A DNA stretch of 47,905 nt from a virus. The stretch covers positions 1-47,905 of IMG/VR virus record IMGVR_UViG_3300010883_018879. The stretch is one strand, 5' to 3'. Positions within the stretch are counted from its first letter, which is position 1. The number at the start of each line of letters is the position of its first letter. Below, piece by piece: positions 1,856-46,678 of the stretch. Below the pieces are notes generated by a model, which did not search any database, was not told the DNA's origin, and worked only from the letters and a program-made list of their open reading frames with translations. The translations under genes and the position numbers were made by a program.

Positions 1856-3328
1856 TTATTCAACTCTAAATTTGAATATTTCAGGTTGCTCTGTTAGTAA
1901 TCCATTGACTTGATACATAAATTTCAATCCATATTGAAAATCTTTCTCTAGCATCGACATATCAAAATCAAAGTAATTGCCCTGAGAATCATATGACATT
2001 CTAGTATGATCTGTTTTGGAGCCTGTTCCGTAATCTACAACATCCAGATCGTCAGTAACTCTATGAATCTTGTAGTATGCTTTTACTATTGGTGTCGCAG
2101 CTATGGCTGTTGATGCTACGCTGTATACGGTTGGGTTCCAATCGTGATTCCTCACAAACACTCGGAACCTAGCAGTTTCCCTGTCACTATATACTGGCTT
2201 TAGTCCAATAATACTAGTGACATACGATGTACTGAAATTGGAATTGCCTGCAGAATATGACTTTACGGTAATTGCTGAACTGCTTTGAAAGTTTGTTGAA
2301 CCGCTCGACCATACAACATACAAAGGCAATGTAGACGATCCAGTAAAGGCAAATGAAGCAGAATATATACCAGTTGATTGCCAAGCACCTGTTACATTAA
2401 CATCTCCATCACTTACAACGTCACCTCCAACTGGCAACGTAATAGCATCCTTGTTGTTTGTTAAAGCATTATAACAACTTGCGGTTATGGCTCCAGTTCC
2501 GATAGCTGGAATATCTCTTAGTTGGCCGGCTACAACATTGTATAAGTACACTGAATTCAAATTGCTTTCTGACGGTAACAAAGAACTGCTTAGAAAGAAA
2601 TTACCAGCATCGTCTCTATCGGAAGAATCCCATCGAGCTTCAATGGTTGGTTGCTTGAAGAAGAATTCTGTGTCTCTTGCAAAGAACTTCTTTGTGTAAT
2701 ACGATCTAGTTGAGCCAGTCAAGTTTGAAGAACTTGAACCCTCAAGGCTGGAAGACATGTAAATTCCCAATCCGTTGTGTGGGACCGTGCTGTCGAGCCA
2801 TCTCTCTGTAATATCAGTAATATCTAATTCTATGTCTTCTGTTCCCACAATAAAGTTTGGATTTTTGAAGACATCGGAGGTGCCATTTAGGAAATCACCT
2901 CCTGCTGTTGTCCAAGTATTATCAGTTGAAGCCGTATCCCAATTGGCTGGCCCTTTGTCCAAATACGTCTCCATATCCAGACCAACGCCTTCTGTCCATG
3001 ACTGGCTAACTGCTGCGACAGTAAGAGAGAAGTTAGATGGTAACGTTTCGCTATGCTCTGCATTGTGTAACCTTAAGAAGAATCTGACACTTCCTGATAC
3101 TGGGATAGCTGAATTGTCTCTACTGGCTGATAAATCAGACATTACTGGGAACTGAATCAAAGCTCTGGACAGTTCTATTGAGGATGTGGTTGACTGGCCA
3201 TATATGGAAAACACTTCCAAGATGTCAGAAGCGCCCATATTACTGGATGTTGCGCGGAGTTGCAGACCAGACTTAAAAGCGTTCGTTATCGTTGTATCTT
3301 TTGTTGCGTAAAATCTCTTTATTCCCAT
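1856..3328 (-). CDS. virion structural protein, DNRLRE-like N-terminal half
   Basis: A 490-residue protein of mostly beta-type, Ser/Thr/Gly-rich sequence with no signal peptide or membrane segment. The N-terminal 200 residues (ATKDTTITNAF, then SRALIQFPV, then VSQSWTEGVGLDMETY, NWDTA and DITERWLDS) follow the order of motifs in DNRLRE-type carbohydrate-associated domains, in which a parallel set of strands ends with a Trp-Thr-Glu-Gly turn. The C-terminal half ends with motifs for fibronectin-like or Ig-like strands but is not firmly assigned. The ATG shares one base with the stop of gp6 (TAATG), so translation is probably coupled. Its place between gp6 and the LamG protein supports a baseplate or fibre role; the DNRLRE call is tentative. 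Confidence 0.78.
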   Translation of the reverse strand: MGIKRFYATKDTTITNAFKSGLQLRATSSNMGASDILEVFSIYGQSTTSSIELSRALIQFPVMSDLSASRDNSAIPVSGSVRFFLRLHNAEHSETLPSNFSLTVAAVSQSWTEGVGLDMETYLDKGPANWDTASTDNTWTTAGGDFLNGTSDVFKNPNFIVGTEDIELDITDITERWLDSTVPHNGLGIYMSSSLEGSSSSNLTGSTRSYYTKKFFARDTEFFFKQPTIEARWDSSDRDDAGNFFLSSSLLPSESNLNSVYLYNVVAGQLRDIPAIGTGAITASCYNALTNNKDAITLPVGGDVVSDGDVNVTGAWQSTGIYSASFAFTGSSTLPLYVVWSSGSTNFQSSSAITVKSYSAGNSNFSTSYVTSIIGLKPVYSDRETARFRVFVRNHDWNPTVYSVASTAIAATPIVKAYYKIHRVTDDLDVVDYGTGSKTDHTRMSYDSQGNYFDFDMSMLEKDFQYGLKFMYQVNGLLTEQPEIFKFRVE

Positions 3329-5121
3329 TAACTAACAACTCCAACAATGTCCTCATCAGGAAAACGCAACTCCAATATCACATCTTCTGGCACAATTATG
3401 AACTTTTGATCTGAAGTCATGTTCGCTTCTGCATCATAGTTTGTAGTGCTGTATTTGCTTCCTCTTCTGTTGACAATCTTTACTGACTTGGTATCTATCA
3501 CTTCTGGCAAATCATTCAAAGCCTTGAACACGTCTTGTACATAAAACGGCTGCCCTAAGAATAAGACATTCGCAAACTTTGCTTTTATGGCTGATATTGA
3601 TTTGTTCAAGATCTCTGTTGTGCTCTTCTCTAAAACACCAACAACTTCAAACTCAATTCCAATATTTGCAATTCTTCCATCCAATATGTCAATAGTATCA
3701 TTGATCATCTTGTATTGATTAATCCATTTTTTAAGATTGTTCTTCAAAGTCGAAGTTGCTTCGATTAGATTGCCATCAATATTTTCTGAGACAACAAAGA
3801 GATTTAAGTTCCTTTTGAATGAATCCTTATCTTGTACAATATTAGCTCTTTTAATTGAACCAAACTTCGCGGGCATTCTATAGATGATGTTCAAGTAATC
3901 TTGTTTTGTTACTGCTCGATTCTGAGATGAGAAGTTATCTATTGCTCTCGTTCGAATCTCTTCACTTGTTATGATGTCTGTTTGACCAAGAATGGGAGTT
4001 TCGTTTGTCACCTCGATTGAGCTTGCTATTTGAGACCGCTGTGTTGCGGACACGGTGTTTGTTCCAAATGAAAAGATCGGACTAGTAACTCTGTTCAGAG
4101 AGCCGGCTGCAATGTTAACGCTTGAGTTGGTATTCACCCTGTATCTAATAATCAATTGTCCTTGTGGTGGCACAACTCCAAACTTGTCAGTCTTTAGCAT
4201 GATGTTGGGATCAAAAGAAGCATCCTTGAAATACTTCTTTGCATGTACTTGCAGAACAGAGGTTGAAGGATCTGGAAAGCTATTATCTTTCAGTGTTTCT
4301 TCCGATCCATATCCAAATTGCAAAAACGTTTCAAAGTCAGAGTTGTGTTCTACTACAAACCTACGAGGCACAAGGATCTCTCGTAACAGATACGGAACCA
4401 GTTCCTTTTCTGTAGACACTCTGTTCCGAATGGATTGGAAAATGATGTTCTGAGACAAATAATCAACTTCGAAATATTCATGTCCTTGTGAATCATGTAC
4501 TGTCAAAATCTCTGTGATATTCTCTCCTGTCAATTGTAATCTCATGAACTTCTCATAAGCCCCAACTGTGACTAACTCAGTATCAACTCGTCCTGAAATA
4601 ACTTCCCCAAATGCCTTGAGCGCATAAGATGTTGGTTGGCCATCGGCATTGACTGCTGACACAACAGTTTCAACATCAGTCTTTGAGAAATCAACATCAT
4701 CGTTCAGAGAGAACGAAGCTCCCGAATCTGATACTAACGATGTTCCTCTTTGTAAAATTGGTATCAACGATGTATTGGGGCCTGAACCTGCTGATGTCGC
4801 CGGAACTATTACAAACAATGTGACGACACCGCTAGACGATGGAGTACCTGGATATTTGAACCCAAACTGCTTAGCCAACTTGATAATGTTTTTCGTTTCT
4901 ATCGCAGAATCCAAGAACGATTCGTTTGTTTGATAATCAGAATAGAAGGAGAGCATGTCGCCCGTGTAAGCTACCAAATCTAGCATCAGGGCTCCGAAGC
5001 TTGCCTCATTGAAGTCTTTGAATGTATCAGGATAGTACACTTTCGCGTAATTGATCAAGTCTTGCTTGATCGTTTCGAAATCTCTGTTGATGTATTTGAC
5101 TGGTGGATTTTTGTTTGTCAT
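3328..5121 (-). CDS. gp6: baseplate wedge protein, T4 gp6-like (baseplate J family)
   Basis: At 597 residues it is close to T4 gp6 (660). The N-terminus carries the gp6/baseplate-J signature: INRDFETIKQDLINYAKVYYPD, then GALMLDLVAYTGDMLSFYSDY and NESFLDSA within the first 75 residues. The segment TKQDYLNIIYRMPAKFG at about 404-420 matches the conserved C-terminal region of the family. In T4, gp6 dimers form the continuous ring that ties the baseplate wedges together and drives the sheath-contraction switch. The gene lies 4 bases after gp25, as in many T4-like phages, and overlaps the next structural gene by one base. The identification is firm. Confidence 0.95.
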   Translation of the reverse strand: MTNKNPPVKYINRDFETIKQDLINYAKVYYPDTFKDFNEASFGALMLDLVAYTGDMLSFYSDYQTNESFLDSAIETKNIIKLAKQFGFKYPGTPSSSGVVTLFVIVPATSAGSGPNTSLIPILQRGTSLVSDSGASFSLNDDVDFSKTDVETVVSAVNADGQPTSYALKAFGEVISGRVDTELVTVGAYEKFMRLQLTGENITEILTVHDSQGHEYFEVDYLSQNIIFQSIRNRVSTEKELVPYLLREILVPRRFVVEHNSDFETFLQFGYGSEETLKDNSFPDPSTSVLQVHAKKYFKDASFDPNIMLKTDKFGVVPPQGQLIIRYRVNTNSSVNIAAGSLNRVTSPIFSFGTNTVSATQRSQIASSIEVTNETPILGQTDIITSEEIRTRAIDNFSSQNRAVTKQDYLNIIYRMPAKFGSIKRANIVQDKDSFKRNLNLFVVSENIDGNLIEATSTLKNNLKKWINQYKMINDTIDILDGRIANIGIEFEVVGVLEKSTTEILNKSISAIKAKFANVLFLGQPFYVQDVFKALNDLPEVIDTKSVKIVNRRGSKYSTTNYDAEANMTSDQKFIIVPEDVILELRFPDEDIVGVVS

Positions 5122-16760: not shown

Positions 16761-17634
16761 ATTTAATCATTCCCCTCTTATATCCCTTCTCTCGGAACCA
16801 CACAAAGACTTCGTTCAGAATCTGCCAACGTTTGATCGCAAATTGTTCGAAGTCCTTATCAATAATTTGTGGTATTGTGTCATGATAAAGAAACCGACAT
16901 CTCTTTAAAAGCTCATCTGTTAGTTCACAAGGCACTGATCTTGTAACGATATTCCAATAGCTTAATAAGAACTCATATGGTTCATTTATTTGGCGTATGC
17001 TATCAACAATGTTGAATTTATAGTAATCATTAATGTCTACATCTGCGTGCAAAGTATCAGATGAAATATGCTTGTAGTAACACATATTGAAATCTTGTAT
17101 TAACATACCTAGTGAGATAATGTGGTCAGCATACTGCCTTTCAACGGATCTCTTCTTCATCATTCTTATGTCATTGATTGAACGTAAGGAAGGAGTTATA
17201 GATTGCTCGTCGATATCTAAGAATGAAGTAATGTTATCAATGCTTCGACGGACAGACTTTAAAGTCAGATGAATACTCTTTGAAGCGTTAAGGCTATTGT
17301 CACAATAACACAATCGTTCAGGAGCCCACTCAATGATTTCAACTGCTTTAAATGGTCGGACTGGCGGCTTGTCTCTGTATCTAATCTGGCCCTGTAATAA
17401 TTTTAGATTAAACTTTTCAATGTAGTCGATCTTGTGGAATAGATCGCTGGGATAGATGATGATGTTTCCACCTTTAAGATACTTCTTTACTCGTTCGGAG
17501 ATCTTTGGTTTCTCGTCTAATACTAAGAAGTCTAAGTCGGAGATGCCGGGGTGAGACACTTCACCGGCTAGGTAAATATCTAAACCTGGGTTGTCCTTAC
17601 AGAACTCTTTGATTACATCTTCGTAATGTTGCAT
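16744..17634 (-). CDS. nucleotidyltransferase-fold protein I (MNT-like), tentative
   Basis: 296 residues. The strongest motif is YLAGEVSHPGISDLDFLVLD near residues 20-39, a loop-DxD pattern like that of the polymerase-beta nucleotidyltransferase superfamily, though the usual Gly-Ser is Gly-Glu. The rest is helical, with a positively charged middle. The start is the ATG at 17634; a frame from TTG at 17706 lies wholly in the preceding gene. It overlaps a second DxD nucleotidyltransferase-like gene by 22 bases, so the pair may form a complex. Possible roles are transfer of a nucleotide or a phospho-group (LicD-like) to sugar; not shown. Confidence 0.6.
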   Translation of the reverse strand: MQHYEDVIKEFCKDNPGLDIYLAGEVSHPGISDLDFLVLDEKPKISERVKKYLKGGNIIIYPSDLFHKIDYIEKFNLKLLQGQIRYRDKPPVRPFKAVEIIEWAPERLCYCDNSLNASKSIHLTLKSVRRSIDNITSFLDIDEQSITPSLRSINDIRMMKKRSVERQYADHIISLGMLIQDFNMCYYKHISSDTLHADVDINDYYKFNIVDSIRQINEPYEFLLSYWNIVTRSVPCELTDELLKRCRFLYHDTIPQIIDKDFEQFAIKRWQILNEVFVWFREKGYKRGMIKYGWFV

Positions 17635-18623
17635 TTCTCGACCATTTCTTTCGTCAGGGCTGCTGCTCTTTTGAAATAGCCTTTGCCCAATAACTGTTGT
17701 ACCCAATCAGGTATCTCGTTGATTAGCGATGCTTCTTTAGATTCAAACGAACTTCTAACATGACTTGCTATATCAATAATCTTATAGTTCTCAGGACTTA
17801 TGTGTTTTCTACACAACTCAAACGAATCTTTCTTTTCGCAATAGACATCATTTAAGTTCATGAACAAAGATGGTAACAACATAACAACTGAAAGAAAGTA
17901 CTTCATTTGGTACATGGTGTTGACGTTTTTGAAGTTCTCTTGAAGATATTCTTCCCAAGCTGGGTGATGATGTAATATGCCAGTCTTCTGGGCTGATATG
18001 AATGTCTCCTGAATAGACAGCAATCTCTTCCTTTCTAAATCACAACTCGGGACAGACCAGAAGTTGTATTCTCCAGATCTCAACAGGCTTTTTGTATCTT
18101 TCCAAAGTTCAATTGGTAAAAACACACTAGGATACATCTCAAGATCTTTATCTATTAGAACATGGGCTCCATGATGTTGATGTTTATCAAACCTCAATAT
18201 AGAATCATTAATGTTTTCAATCTCATACTTGGCAGATCGATAATCGTACTCCGTCTTAAGCGCTTGTTCGTCTAGAATCACCATCAAGTCCAAATCGCTC
18301 CAGTTCTCAACGTAATCCAACGTGGCTATGCTGCCATGAACAATCACATCTTTAATGTAATTTGTATCACATTCGACAAACTTTCTAATATTCAAAACCT
18401 CTTTAAGATAGTCAGACTGATAATCTTCTTTTCTGATTTCCGGAACTTTAACGACTTTGTCGTTGCCATAAGGTACTTGGTCATAAAACATACATTCGTA
18501 AACACTTCTAATGTATTCAATGACCTCAAAGTTCTCGATTGGGGCTGCGTTGTACACACAATGTGGAAGCAAACACTTGTTCAGCAAAGCGTTCGTTTTG
18601 ACATGCATTTGGTTAATTAACAT
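17613..18623 (-). CDS. nucleotidyltransferase-fold protein II (MNT-like)
   Basis: 336 residues. Residues 93-117 read VIVHGSIATLDYVENWSDLD with Gly97-Ser98 and Asp110-x-Asp112, the classic hGS-x11-DxD active site of minimal nucleotidyltransferases. An acidic residue for the third ligand is possible in VLIDKDLEM near 158-165. The C-terminal half is helical and carries a HHHPAWEEYLQENFKN segment. Substrate is unknown. It overlaps the neighbour on each side by 22 and 7 bases. Beside neuA and a deacetylase-like enzyme, a sugar or lipid acceptor is more likely than an RNA or an antibiotic. Confidence 0.68.
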   Translation of the reverse strand: MLINQMHVKTNALLNKCLLPHCVYNAAPIENFEVIEYIRSVYECMFYDQVPYGNDKVVKVPEIRKEDYQSDYLKEVLNIRKFVECDTNYIKDVIVHGSIATLDYVENWSDLDLMVILDEQALKTEYDYRSAKYEIENINDSILRFDKHQHHGAHVLIDKDLEMYPSVFLPIELWKDTKSLLRSGEYNFWSVPSCDLERKRLLSIQETFISAQKTGILHHHPAWEEYLQENFKNVNTMYQMKYFLSVVMLLPSLFMNLNDVYCEKKDSFELCRKHISPENYKIIDIASHVRSSFESKEASLINEIPDWVQQLLGKGYFKRAAALTKEMVEKCNITKM

Positions 18624-41949: not shown

Positions 41950-41978
41950 ATCATAGCATGGGAAAAATCAAAAGTCAA
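41950..41978 (-). promoter_or_regulatory. sigma70-type promoter of the early/glycan operon
   Basis: On the minus strand TTGACT (41978-41973) and TATGAT (41955-41950) are 17 bases apart, one mismatch from each consensus hexamer. The -35 overlaps the stop codon of the 1567-residue gene. TGATCT occurs at 41934-41939 and 41943-41948, and TGATCA at 41948-41953, giving spaced GATC sites at the start point. Expected transcription starts near 41943. It should drive the helix-turn-helix, nuclease and glycan genes using host RNA polymerase. Confidence 0.7.
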
Positions 41979-41992
41979 GTCGCGCTTTTGAT
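41962..41992 (-). terminator. weak hairpin with U-run at end of the 1567-aa gene
   Basis: atcaaaag-tcaagtcgcg-cttttgat is a perfect 8-bp inverted repeat (41967-41992), followed on the minus-strand transcript by UUUU. Only two of eight pairs are G-C, so it is weak. It overlaps the stop codon of the 1567-residue gene and the -35 of the next promoter, so it may act as a boundary between transcription units. Confidence 0.4.
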
Positions 41993-44900
41993 GGTCTTAA
42001 TTATTGCTTGTCGAATATCTTCTTGTAATGCATCACCAGCGAATCTATCACGATCTTGGACGATGTTATCATATTCTGGAGTGGAAATATCACCTAGATT
42101 AGAAGAGATGTCGTTTTCCCATTTATCAAAATAAAGCTTCAAGTTCGTAACTAAGTAATCTTTGAAGTGTTTCTTATCTGCAGCATCATGTAATCGACGG
42201 TATGTCCGGATAATCGGATCAATTACCTTCTTGTACGTGTCAACAGCTTCATCTCGGCCAGTCTCGTCTAATCCAGTGATAGTAGGGAATGTCTGCTCTT
42301 GGTCCCCAACGTCTGTGATTTTCTCAGCAGGTTCTTCAGCGGACTCTGCAGCCTTCTCATCATCTGCCATTGCTGCCTGCCCGAATGGATCGTCAATGTC
42401 AATGAATTTGTCAGGATCGGGATCAATATCAATATCAACTTCATCATTGGGATCATCAATGATTTGTTCCTGTTCCTGTAGCATGTCATCTTCAACACCA
42501 GGAGACTCAACATCTTCTGGAGCAATTTCAGCAGCATCGTCAACATTAAATGGCCCAGCCAATGCATCCTGTGGCGATAGAGTGTCAACAATAGCTTGAA
42601 GCAAGTGCTTCATGAATGATTCGCGCTGGGCTTTGGAAGTTGTTAGACCTTTATACGCGGTTTCAACGATCGGAATAATAATCTTCATTGCAACAACGAG
42701 TTTATTGATACCTGTTGAGTTGGTCGGAGTGTCTTGAATCTGCGCCTCACTGACTAGCTTACGAATGACCATACGAAGCTTGTTTTCTTCTTCTAAGTGA
42801 GCAGTCTGTGAGCGCAGTTTCTTTCGAATTGAGTTGCGTACATGCCGTCTTAGCAATATCTCATCAATCTTTTGTCGTTCTCTGATTAGTTTGTCGTCGC
42901 TCATGTGTTCCTTCTCTTCATCGCTGGTATATGTATAACTAGTTAAATCATCCCCTTTCTTCCTGCCAGCCCCCATTGAACCTTGGACAGAACCGCCTGC
43001 CATGCCTGACATTTCATCTAGTTCTTCATCTTCTTCGTTGACTGTCTTTTTAGCATGCTTTCTGGAAGCTGACTCTGCCGATTCAGCAGCTTCTTTCTCA
43101 GAGTGCCTGCCTGCTGAAGTTGTTCTGTCTTTAGTTCGACGTTTACCGAACTTCTTTCTGATGTAATCGAAAGCTCCCTCTTCAAGGTTAGTACCCTCTG
43201 AATCTCTATACTGTTTAAGATTCTTCATTGCGGCACTCCAGGCTCTCGGCGGCCTGCCAGTTGCAGTGGTTTCTCCTAGATAGTTATTGTTTAAAAACCA
43301 CATTTCTGCTCCATGAATACGAGCCGGCCCATGTTCATTGTGATATTCATTATCAACTTGCCATGCTCGGTATTCGCCACCGCTTTGTGAGTCATCTGCC
43401 GCCCTTTCTTCCCAATATTTCTTTTCTTTTAGTTCCTCTGGAGAACTAGTGTGAATTTTTAAATAATGCTTAAACACATCAGTTACGTCCGACGTAACAA
43501 GGTTGGTAGTTTTAATTTCCAATTTCTTCATAAATCCGCCAAAGTATTTCCAATACTTCTTGTCTGGGGATCTATTCTGTTTGCCAACTGCTTGAGTGAT
43601 CGCGTTTGCTTTCTTACTCCATGTTATCGTTCCATGTGGTTCAAATCTATCATCGAATAGGATCTGAAGATGGCCGCTTGAATCGCTCCCGCAATGGCCC
43701 ATCTTGTTAGAAATCCATCCCTCACATTCGTTTGATTTAGTATCATGCCAGAAGAAACCATCATCGAATGTTAGGATTGCTCCTTCTTTGAACTTTTGAT
43801 TTTCATATTGTCTCCTCATATAAGCTAAAACTTCATCATGATGTGTTAAATCTTTGATATTTCGGAATTGATTTGGATCTTTTTCGAGAAAACTATGAAT
43901 CCACTCTACATTTTTGACTGCCCTTTCTCTGGGGTTCGGATCATTTCCCTCATAGCTCTCGATGGCGTCTTTATACCACTTGCCCAAAGTAAAGCTCCAT
44001 TTGGGATGCAACGAATGCAGCCAATCTGCAATTTCTTTATCTAATCCCAACAGTCTAACAATATTCCCACGCTTATCTTCCTGTAACAATCCGCCACAGT
44101 TCCCATCAGCATCATAACACGAGTTAGCATAACCATCAAACTTAATGGGTGGCTTAGCAGCACCCTTCTTAAGTTGAGCTTGCTTTCCGTGGACATTGCC
44201 ATTCGATGCAGCACTCATTTCCTCGATAGCCTGTTCTTTTGCTAGGTAATTGAAGATCTCTGCTTTATCCTCAGTTGACAGATTGGGATGCATGTAGTTA
44301 TAAACTTGTTGTCTCTCTTCCTCAGATGGTTCCGGAGCTTCTAGAACAGTCCTCATATCGCCAGCAGATAGTGCCACGTCTCCGCTAAGCATCTGCGTGG
44401 GTAACACCAGGGCTTCGACGTTTACGCCCTCTGGAGCGTATTTGGAGGGGTTTATCTGATTCCAACGTTCAGCGTCTTTCAGAGACGCTGCCAAGTAAAC
44501 AGTATCTCCTGTCTGTGACCATTCAGGATTGCCAGCTTTGTTCTCAATGAAATCTAGTGCTGCTCTAACAGGACTAGCCTCTGAGGAAACAATGATATCC
44601 ACAGGTGATGCAATGTTTGTTGATGCTAACTTATACTTTTCGAATACATCTGCTGCCATATCTGCAGTAATATGGCTTCTAACCTTTTTGACTGGATTTG
44701 AGATAATGACCATTACCTTATCAATACCTTCTAGTTCTGAGAGATACTCGATGATTGAGAAGTGCCCATAATGTGGTGGTTTGAATGAACCTGGGAAGAT
44801 GGCAATGTTTCTGGAGCCTTCCATTTGTAAGTCAGGCTCCAAAGCTTCTCTCATAACTGCTCTGTTGACTCTCGTGAATCCAGCTCTGTCGACAAGCTTG

Positions 44901-46678
44901 ATATCGCCTCGCTGATCTGCCATTACATAACCTTCGCCACCGTCCATTTCTCCGATTGATGCTTTAATGGGTGTATCTTGTGAGTCTAGTTGATGAATAA
45001 TATCATCTTTCACCGACATGGTTCCTTGAACTACCTGCCATACAACTGAGAATACATCTTTATATTCTGAGACATAGCTGATAATGTTTTGCTTTTTAAT
45101 GTTGCTTATTCGAGGCTGGTTTTTGACCCATTCCAGGAAGTCATGCCCCAAGTTGTCTAGTGACTCGCCAACCTTGGAATTGAGATACGTGTACAGTAGA
45201 ATGGCAAAGTTACTCATCTTTAAGATTCGTAAGCTGTCTAAGTTGAGGAAGCTGTCAATTTCTGATGCTGAATTGTTTACAACGCTTCGAAGCGAATTAA
45301 TAGCTTCGTGTTTGACGGAGACAGATCCCTGGATAGTAACCGGAGGCATAACGAATAGATGCCCGCCTTGGAATACATCGAAGTTCTTAATTGGAGTCTT
45401 GTTCTGATTTAGATCGATTTCCCTGTGAATAACAACACCTGCGATGCTATTTGCTATGTTCTGGCCAACTTCACTATTTGGTTCTACTCTGTATGTTACG
45501 ATGTTCGGAGTGAACTCATATTTGTCATCAACAATCTCTGGTGTTCGGTAATACAACAGATCCCCGAAGAAGAAGCCTCTGTAGTTCTCTGGGATTGAAG
45601 CTTCGAAGTGCTGGAAAGCTTCTGCCATACTATTGGCGAATTGCTCATAAGCTGGCGTGACCTCTTTCTGTTTCTCTTGCTTTCGGATCTTAACAAAGAT
45701 GTTTCTAAGTTGCTCTGGGCTCTTTGCCCAACCATCGTATCCCTTTGCGGTGAATCCACTCTTGTCTGTGAATACAAAGTCACCATTTTCGTCTCTACCG
45801 AACACAACTGCTGGAGAACCATCCCATTTAATAGTTGTTGATAGCTTTCCCTTGTCTGATTCGATATTCGATAGCAAATCAAGGACTCTCAACGCTCCTT
45901 GAGATCCTTCCCAAAAGATGACATCTTCTGCATGTTGGATACGTGGTCCGCCCATGGCTTCGTTCAGTGGTTTAATTCGATCTGGGAATGGAACGTTGAA
46001 CTTCGGGAATGTTTCAACAGCCATAGCTACCAATTGATCGTACTTTTCCCTTCCTGAAATCGCCTTCATGATTTTGTCAATTGATGTTAGTTCGTCTGGG
46101 TTATGCCCATCACCTAACAAGATATCACTGATTCGTTGGGGATCTGTTATACGCTCACCCGTCTCTCTGTGTGTTAGTCCTGTGAATCCCTGCCACTTAT
46201 AGCCATGCGCAGTCGCGATTGAATTAAGAAGAATCATTCTGTGTTGTCCACGATAGACATCACCCATTTCACCAACAGAACTCCACTTCATAAAATCGGT
46301 ATTGCCGAACATTAGGTCTGTTTGAACATAGCCGTTGCTTTCATCACCATTAATCGGAGTTTTGAAATGAACTGAGATACCACTCTTTGCAATCCATGTC
46401 CTTAACTTGTCTTCTGGATGATATTGTTGAACCCACTGTTTGAGGACAGCAATGAGCTTGTCTTTATCTGCGGTTTGATCATCGACCGCAATGTCTAAGT
46501 CACCTGATGTCTCTTTCTTTCCTGTTGTACCAAGTGTGTTATCCAATAGTGGTAAATTGATGATTCGTTCTAACCATTTTAGGGTGGGAACTACATCTGC
46601 ACGATTGATTCGCTGCGTTAGTGTCTGCTTGTTGACATCTTTGAAGATGTTACCACCTTCTAGCAGGAGCTTAGTCAT
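41975..46678 (-). CDS. giant multidomain protein with three nucleotidyl-transfer modules
   Basis: 1567 residues. Residues 45-125 are a polymerase-beta-like nucleotidyltransferase (SGDLDIAVDD, Asp60-Asp62; VQTDLMF, Asp121). Residues 240-600 resemble a covalent ligase/nucleotidyltransferase (IKWDGSPAVVFG with Lys284-x-Asp-Gly, FFFGDLLYY, EGYVM at 582-586, IKLVD at 593-597). Residues 624-780 are an HxGH cytidylyltransferase/NMNAT-like domain (FPGSFKPPHYGHF, ISNPVKKVRS). About 880-1055 is a separate domain with MGHCGSDSSGHLQILFDD, followed by a YHNEHGPARI unit. The final 400 residues are low complexity with a very acidic stretch (1395-1450). The ligase-like part recalls DUF6267 of marine T4-like phages. 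Function is unknown; RNA/nucleotide end modification is a guess. Confidence 0.85.
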   Translation of the reverse strand: MTKLLLEGGNIFKDVNKQTLTQRINRADVVPTLKWLERIINLPLLDNTLGTTGKKETSGDLDIAVDDQTADKDKLIAVLKQWVQQYHPEDKLRTWIAKSGISVHFKTPINGDESNGYVQTDLMFGNTDFMKWSSVGEMGDVYRGQHRMILLNSIATAHGYKWQGFTGLTHRETGERITDPQRISDILLGDGHNPDELTSIDKIMKAISGREKYDQLVAMAVETFPKFNVPFPDRIKPLNEAMGGPRIQHAEDVIFWEGSQGALRVLDLLSNIESDKGKLSTTIKWDGSPAVVFGRDENGDFVFTDKSGFTAKGYDGWAKSPEQLRNIFVKIRKQEKQKEVTPAYEQFANSMAEAFQHFEASIPENYRGFFFGDLLYYRTPEIVDDKYEFTPNIVTYRVEPNSEVGQNIANSIAGVVIHREIDLNQNKTPIKNFDVFQGGHLFVMPPVTIQGSVSVKHEAINSLRSVVNNSASEIDSFLNLDSLRILKMSNFAILLYTYLNSKVGESLDNLGHDFLEWVKNQPRISNIKKQNIISYVSEYKDVFSVVWQVVQGTMSVKDDIIHQLDSQDTPIKASIGEMDGGEGYVMADQRGDIKLVDRAGFTRVNRAVMREALEPDLQMEGSRNIAIFPGSFKPPHYGHFSIIEYLSELEGIDKVMVIISNPVKKVRSHITADMAADVFEKYKLASTNIASPVDIIVSSEASPVRAALDFIENKAGNPEWSQTGDTVYLAASLKDAERWNQINPSKYAPEGVNVEALVLPTQMLSGDVALSAGDMRTVLEAPEPSEEERQQVYNYMHPNLSTEDKAEIFNYLAKEQAIEEMSAASNGNVHGKQAQLKKGAAKPPIKFDGYANSCYDADGNCGGLLQEDKRGNIVRLLGLDKEIADWLHSLHPKWSFTLGKWYKDAIESYEGNDPNPRERAVKNVEWIHSFLEKDPNQFRNIKDLTHHDEVLAYMRRQYENQKFKEGAILTFDDGFFWHDTKSNECEGWISNKMGHCGSDSSGHLQILFDDRFEPHGTITWSKKANAITQAVGKQNRSPDKKYWKYFGGFMKKLEIKTTNLVTSDVTDVFKHYLKIHTSSPEELKEKKYWEERAADDSQSGGEYRAWQVDNEYHNEHGPARIHGAEMWFLNNNYLGETTATGRPPRAWSAAMKNLKQYRDSEGTNLEEGAFDYIRKKFGKRRTKDRTTSAGRHSEKEAAESAESASRKHAKKTVNEEDEELDEMSGMAGGSVQGSMGAGRKKGDDLTSYTYTSDEEKEHMSDDKLIRERQKIDEILLRRHVRNSIRKKLRSQTAHLEEENKLRMVIRKLVSEAQIQDTPTNSTGINKLVVAMKIIIPIVETAYKGLTTSKAQRESFMKHLLQAIVDTLSPQDALAGPFNVDDAAEIAPEDVESPGVEDDMLQEQEQIIDDPNDEVDIDIDPDPDKFIDIDDPFGQAAMADDEKAAESAEEPAEKITDVGDQEQTFPTITGLDETGRDEAVDTYKKVIDPIIRTYRRLHDAADKKHFKDYLVTNLKLYFDKWENDISSNLGDISTPEYDNIVQDRDRFAGDALQEDIRQAIIKTIKSAT

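Follow-up and report, generated by a model that had tools for sequence, protein, structure and literature searches.

Locus and gene content

We investigated an ORF of 1567 codons in the window, that is, the whole 47,905-nucleotide stretch analyzed here, which derives from a viral record of 47.9 kb that is probably a fragment. A sequence-only reading of this DNA had reported the ORF, three sites for nucleotidyl transfer within it, a domain with an MGHCG motif, and an acidic tail. The ORF is indeed uninterrupted, and we add that it lies on the minus strand (Table 1). The motifs named in that reading were also in place, namely D60/D62/D121, K284 (KWDG), EGYVM at 582, IKLVD at 593, H636/H639, and MGHCG at 993.

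Table 1. Features of the 1567-codon ORF (NT, segment 1; LIG, segment 2)
Feature	Residues	Position in window	Strand	Basis
Whole ORF, NT-LIG-HxGH-insert-tail fusion	1567 aa	41975..46678	minus	1567 stop-free codons
LLE just before G8-G9, in disordered leader; candidate prohead-protease site	5-7	46658..46666	minus	[LI]xE conservation
Segment 1, predicted polymerase-beta/Pol X-like nucleotidyltransferase; D60, D62, D121	1-240	45959..46678	minus	AlphaFold, Foldseek, and conservation
LNE, NT/LIG linker; candidate prohead-protease site	238-240	45959..45967	minus	LxE at every NT/LIG junction inspected
Segment 2, DUF6267, putative ligase-type covalent nucleotidyltransferase; K284-W-D-G, GDLLY (D373), E582-G-Y-V, I-K594-L-V-D-R	247-608	44855..45940	minus	Pfam PF19782 and motifs
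Segment 3, putative HxGH nucleotidyltransferase; H636, H639, S771, A772, R776	~624-800	44279..44809	minus	Pfam PF01467 and profile matches
Insert, MGHCG (993) and NEHGPA-type motif (~1115)	~867-1165	43184..44080	minus	Absent from nearest relative (L001)
C-terminal tail, acidic stretch and conserved end	1166-1567	41978..43183	minus	Reused in L247

A baseplate-wedge gene of phage tail families is located at 3328-5121 of the window and, together with the T4-type genes of relatives, points to a T4-like myovirus. The window also contains a large surface-polysaccharide cluster (11839-40355, minus strand) encoding a NeuB-like synthase, GDP-mannose dehydratase and epimerase, a carbamoyltransferase, an HAD-NTP transferase fusion, and several glycosyltransferases. 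At 17613-18623 (minus strand), there is a second nucleotidyltransferase of the NTP_transf_2/Polbeta type, which is unrelated to segment 1.

The nearest relative is a protein of 1271 aa encoded in an 84-kb contig (L001), with 69% identity over 865 residues (residues 3-862) and 67% over the final 400. Non-synonymous differences per site between the two ORFs amounted to 15-21% across the three domains, and synonymous sites were saturated; per site, non-synonymous differences were approximately 4-9 times rarer than the (saturated) synonymous ones. The ORF is under strong purifying selection relative to this relative, and these differences indicate that it is a functional gene. The relative's genome also has an adenylosuccinate synthetase-like ORF (L001:1568-2575, by eye), which might relate to modified purines.

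Three enzymatic segments

We modeled segment 1 (NT) with AlphaFold from 37 aligned viral-contig sequences. The mean pLDDT was 93.3, with residues 1-6 disordered (pLDDT <50), and the best 50 Foldseek matches in the PDB were all DNA polymerases beta or lambda (E 2e-5 to 1e-4, probability 1.00; query-normalized TM-scores 0.39-0.51). The aspartates D60, D62, and D121, previously read as a polymerase-beta-type DxD site, were invariant in all 37 sequences. Based on these matches and the invariant aspartates, segment 1 is, as modeled, a nucleotidyltransferase of the Pol X-like type that lacks the N-terminal 8-kDa domain. No family in PHROG or Pfam (checked to E 1, Pol X models included) matched it, and a profile search against PDB sequences gave nothing meaningful. 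At least 550 stretches of viral contigs matched segment 1; a search of bacterial and archaeal genome contigs found no relatives, on which basis the family appears to be viral.

Segment 2 (LIG) matched the Pfam family DUF6267 with an E of 7.5e-31 (108.3 bits against a gathering cut-off of 27). Motifs I, III, IV, and V of covalent nucleotidyltransferases are kept in ligase order and are nearly or fully invariant across 69 DUF6267 sequences: K284/D286/G287 (motif I), E582/G583 (motif IV), and K594 (motif V) occur in 69/69, and D373 in 68/69. From sequence, we infer a ligase chemistry for DUF6267, and the structure model (pLDDT 94.8) suggests a ligase fold. The best PDB match of the model was the adenylyltransferase domain of fungal tRNA ligase (rank 1-2), at a non-significant E of 0.1-0.2; ligases recurred among the top 25 structures, none being a significant match to a solved ligase, and a profile search against PDB sequences returned nothing meaningful. 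Among predicted viral structures (BFVD), DUF6267 relatives ranked first, and the first annotated outsiders were RNA ligases of phage Atu_ph07 (E 8e-3, probability 0.89) and Tunisvirus (E 0.02). This 324-aa Atu_ph07 entry is probably the product of L004:7013-7987, because the lengths are equal; the ORF lies directly upstream of the NT gene and has a weak Pfam RNA_ligase match (E 0.002). In a profile comparison of DUF6267 with ligases of the Atu_ph07 type, motif I alone aligned (E 0.0013, prob 18.5). The ligase-type Lys-x-Asp-Gly site claimed previously therefore stands as to its motifs, their order, and the invariance of K284, whereas the support from fold is weak.

Segment 3 matched Pfam PF01467 (CTP_transf_like) at 22.1 bits, barely over the cut-off of 21, and a profile of 11 sequences matched PDB entries for adenylyltransferases of NaMN, NMN, and pantetheine-phosphate (E from 1e-4 upward). 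It thus belongs to the HxGH nucleotidyltransferases and resembles the NMN/NaMN-adenylyltransferase type, profile similarity suggesting the putative substrate. G630, P634, P635, H639, S771, A772, and R776 were invariant in 11/11 sequences, and H636 was replaced by Thr in 3/11. The sequence-only reading had placed both histidines correctly, but its second motif, ISxxxKxxR at 659-667, was rejected, as R667 was Arg in only 3/11; the true motif of the ISxxxxR type is LSAGDMR at 770-776. The Pol X-like fold of segment 1, the ligase motifs of segment 2, and the PF01467 and adenylyltransferase profile matches of segment 3 support the claim that one chain unites three separate superfamilies of nucleotidyl transfer; a nucleotidyltransferase fold was not missing from two of the three segments, and the catalytic residues proved to be conserved.

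The MGHCG motif is in place, but the region around it (~867-1165), read previously as a domain of the protein, is an insert lacking in the nearest relative, and a stretch related to it is found in another protein of that relative's genome. By eye, an open frame of 1166 aa upstream of the L001/L009 relative (L009:1-3501) joins a domain of the MGHCG type to recurring HREDGPA-type motifs and ends in a lysozyme-like part. The window protein, L001, L010, L012, and L247 have their C-terminal tail in common; in the window protein, it is acidic as previously claimed (D+E 39% over 1378-1460). The tail of L247 is 29% identical to that of the window protein over 298 residues (E 9e-30) and follows a different KxDG-HxGH pair.

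Gene coupling and fusions among relatives

We found that, in marine loci where NT and LIG are separate genes, the two were adjacent in 84 of 93 distinct pairs and overlapped by 4 bp in 47. They are also fused in several lineages, in either order; the fusion types were NT-LIG, LIG-NT, HxGH-NT-LIG, and NT-LIG-HxGH, and HxGH/DUF6267 fusions were found in both orders. A DUF6267 tree of 150 sequences contained eight architecture changes; for the unfused label, well-supported branches require at least six. In this tree, the window protein groups with L001, L010, and L012 (support 97), beside which L125 is a fifth, truncated case. Our search for partial architectures in other phages thus yielded NT/LIG and LIG/HxGH pairs, and DUF6267-cytidyltransferase pairs were already known from cyanophage records: DUF6267 matched 469 phage records and the neighboring ‘cytidyltransferase’ 556, mostly of cyanophages.

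An HxGH gene was nearby in few NT+LIG loci. Other KxDG motifs also share a chain with HxGH domains (L217, L247, L248, and L253; L211, L212, and L225), as do, by eye, HAD-like or protease-like parts (L219, L213). In the first four of these chains, HxGH is fused to another uncharacterized KxDG family (GGxxGHMxH...EKxDGQN). A KxDG protein outside DUF6267 is encoded next to NT, or no more than three genes away, in Agrobacterium phage Atu_ph07, Sinorhizobium phage Phosso, and Pseudomonas phage PA5oct, indicating that a ligase-type gene accompanies NT also where DUF6267 is not its partner; the Pfam RNA_ligase matches of these neighbors were weak in both Atu_ph07 (E 0.002) and Phosso (E 0.085).

HAD phosphatase and P-loop kinase partners were present at some loci. 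A helical-looking partner, X305, is common to Atu_ph07, Phosso, and 80-odd marine ORFs. Marine as well as rhizobial phages encode this conserved protein of 230-305 aa downstream of NT/LIG (L029:10219-11136, L004:8653-9561, L005:8800-9501), with an E of 1e-68 between the groups; it had no convincing match in Pfam or PHROG. Candidates for a PD-(D/E)XK-like upstream gene in S-WAM1, HTVC008M, and PA5oct looked alike by eye; we do not claim a conserved gene, because they missed each other in HMM searches.

Leader and junction motifs

The cleavage site of the T4 prohead protease follows L/I-x-E, and the internal proteins of T4 are directed to the head by a leader of 10 residues (PMC9026906). We found a strict [LI]xE ahead of the domain-opening GG in 80 of 84 distinct NT proteins. 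The motif was also present in 61 of 69 LIG leaders (19 expected on shuffling) and in 21 of 25 junctions of fused proteins (11.6 expected), and its frequency within the first 20 residues was 77-80% for NT and LIG ORFs, against 28% for all ORFs in the same loci. Between LIG and HxGH of the window protein, no strict L/I-x-E was found. The S77 prohead protease was detected in all six cultured phages tested (S-WAM1, HTVC008M, Atu_ph07, Phosso, PA5oct, and a Flavobacterium phage) and in the genome of L001; it went undetected in the window, G002, G004-G006, G008, and G016, which are possible fragments.

In cyanophage S-CREM2, the HxGH protein gp154 was detected in purified virions by MS (3 peptides), and its authors consider carry-over possible (PMC10665884). 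This protein belongs to the HxGH family described here (E 2e-34) and has the leader MKNFSSFLTE. A loose leader pattern reached only p 0.06 in S-CREM2. When the T4 IPIII leader described in PMC9026906 was used to define a pattern by position (4, 7, 8, 10), this pattern fitted 4 of 19 virion-detected proteins of non-structural or unknown type and 0 of 93 undetected ones (p 6e-4), a value that is indicative only because the pattern was chosen after the outcome of the loose pattern was seen. The strict IPIII-type pattern fits few NT/LIG proteins. In PA5oct, NT is labeled ‘structural protein’ by MS; this label is weak, since the MS set also includes ribonucleotide reductase. Overall, the L/I-x-E sites before domains, the T4-type protease in 6/6 cultured phages, and the virion-detected HxGH relative suggest that the window protein may be packaged in the virion.

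Interpretation

We tentatively interpret the protein as a fused end-repair enzyme of a T4-like marine phage, with RNA as the most likely substrate and the HxGH segment in cofactor support, which is packaged and cleaved; taken whole, this reading has, in our estimation, somewhat less than an even chance of being right. Segment 1 would extend a broken 3′ end by at least one nucleotide, and segment 2 would move AMP from ATP onto Lys284, activate the 5′ phosphate, and seal the ends in the manner of RNA ligases. Segment 3 would assist by producing a nucleotide cofactor, for which NAD+ or a dinucleotide related to it is the likeliest candidate. The most likely substrate would be host or phage RNA (e.g., tRNA) cut by host defense; the main alternative would be phage DNA with nicks. 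The chain would probably enter the prohead during packaging and be cleaved between its domains by a T4-type prohead protease. What the data show is the predicted fold of segment 1, the conservation of the catalytic residues and of the L/I-x-E sites, and the coupling and repeated fusion of the genes; substrate, cofactor identity, packaging, and cleavage are what we infer. The adjacency of NT and LIG in dozens of other ocean phages points to a kit for repairing nucleic-acid ends. The sequence-only reading had proposed either the modification of RNA ends or the making of a cofactor; the former would be the most likely role, and the latter fits segment 3 only.

If the kit acts on DNA instead, the Pol X-like domain would fill gaps and DUF6267 would close nicks or breaks, so that the phage genome is protected or recombined. 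Pairs of Pol X and ligase in some large DNA viruses are an analogue. The fold matches of segment 1 are to DNA polymerases beta and lambda, and primase or helicase genes lie near the NT/LIG blocks of several unrelated phages (S-WAM1, HTVC008M, Atu_ph07, Phosso, and PA5oct). Several genomes, however, already have a DNA ligase: ATP-dependent beside NT and DUF6267 in contigs G004, G006, and G016, with DUF6267 in Vibrio phage 2.275.O, and with NT in PA5oct; and NAD-dependent with NT in Atu_ph07, Phosso, and Lak. Since several contigs with NT and DUF6267 also carry a normal ATP DNA ligase, DUF6267 is not simply a replicative ligase, and we rejected it as the missing replicative enzyme for such genomes. 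S-WAM1 and HTVC008M are exceptions that speak for DNA, having DUF6267 and no detectable DNA ligase of either Pfam family. The closest outside structures of DUF6267 are RNA ligases, and we consider the DNA explanation rather unlikely. Within end repair, the DNA ligases already present in several genomes, the likeness of DUF6267 to RNA ligases, and the precedent of RlaP with RNA ligases tilt the balance modestly toward RNA.

The three activities could also serve small-molecule or protein modification, in which DUF6267 would adenylylate or nucleotidylate a metabolite or protein, HxGH would make an activated cofactor, and segment 1 would nucleotidylate a protein or small molecule, all within a polyvalent protein injected for host takeover. 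HxGH enzymes usually act on small phosphorylated molecules, their domains are fused here to several different KxDG families and a protease-like domain, and the polysaccharide-synthesis cluster shares the window. Nevertheless, the pairing of a Pol X-like with a ligase-type protein across phages fits nucleic-acid ends better, and HxGH is a neighbor in few NT+LIG loci, so that we regard such a role as distinctly unlikely. The same scarcity counts against a self-contained recycling ligase, in which DUF6267 would use NAD+ with release of NMN and HxGH would regenerate NAD+ from NMN. The match of the HxGH profile to NMN/NaMN adenylyltransferases and the origin of LIG/HxGH fusions in both orders would suit this scheme, but Pfam recognized no NAD-binding Ia domain before segment 2, and we consider it highly improbable.

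Comparison with known systems and implications

Segments 2 and 3 belong to or resemble DUF6267 and a phage ‘cytitidyltransferase’ (PHROG 455, 395), whose genes are neighbors in S-WAM1 and similar cyanophages and form a fusion in S-PM2 (591 aa), among others; relative to these pairs, the window protein adds a Pol X-like domain in front, the insert, and the acidic tail. RlaP is a Pol-beta nucleotidyltransferase that works with the Rnl1/Rnl2 RNA ligases of phages (PMC7824862). The window protein likewise has a Pol-beta-type nucleotidyltransferase beside a KxDG ligase-type partner, whereas segment 1 has no Pfam match (E up to 1), its nearest folds are DNA polymerases beta and lambda, and its partner is DUF6267. 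As for an RlaP-style ligase association, most loci couple NT with DUF6267, and in Atu_ph07 and Phosso its partners are genes that resemble RNA_ligase weakly. Segment 1 resembles DNA polymerase X (beta, lambda) in its predicted palm/thumb-like fold and metal-binding aspartates, but has neither the 8-kDa domain nor a Pfam Pol X match, and the TM-score is ~0.4-0.5. Segment 3 shares HxGH and S-x-x-x-x-R with NadR/NadD/NadM (NMN/NaMN adenylyltransferases), although its motif is SAxxxR and it is fused to ligase-type domains. Polyvalent proteins and packaged proteins of the T4 Alt type (PMC5512222, PMC9026906) also combine several unrelated enzymatic domains per chain, with L/I-x-E at the leader and junctions; in the window protein, no autopeptidase domain was found, and its packaging is putative.

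As far as our tools show, each part is a member or relative of a known superfamily, and the novelty lies in the complete combination, in a Pol X-like family that is unclassified, and in how closely this family is linked to DUF6267. The literature searched made no mention of DUF6267. A bolder proposal, which we think improbable in its entirety, is a virion-carried, protease-matured polyprotein that delivers an unrecognized repair kit at injection. The kit would consist of a Pol X-like nucleotidyltransferase and a DUF6267 ligase, each of a new family, and an HxGH enzyme that makes a cofactor, and it would be widespread in ocean phages.

DUF6267, a family without assigned function, is now tied to a Pol X-like enzyme outside all Pfam and PHROG families. 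The fusion yields a prediction that can be assayed, namely adenylylation of the KxDG lysine, nucleotide addition at 3′ ends, and sealing. If true, phages would have a further, new end-repair system in the conflict over broken RNA or DNA, and the findings suggest that it may be carried in the particle.
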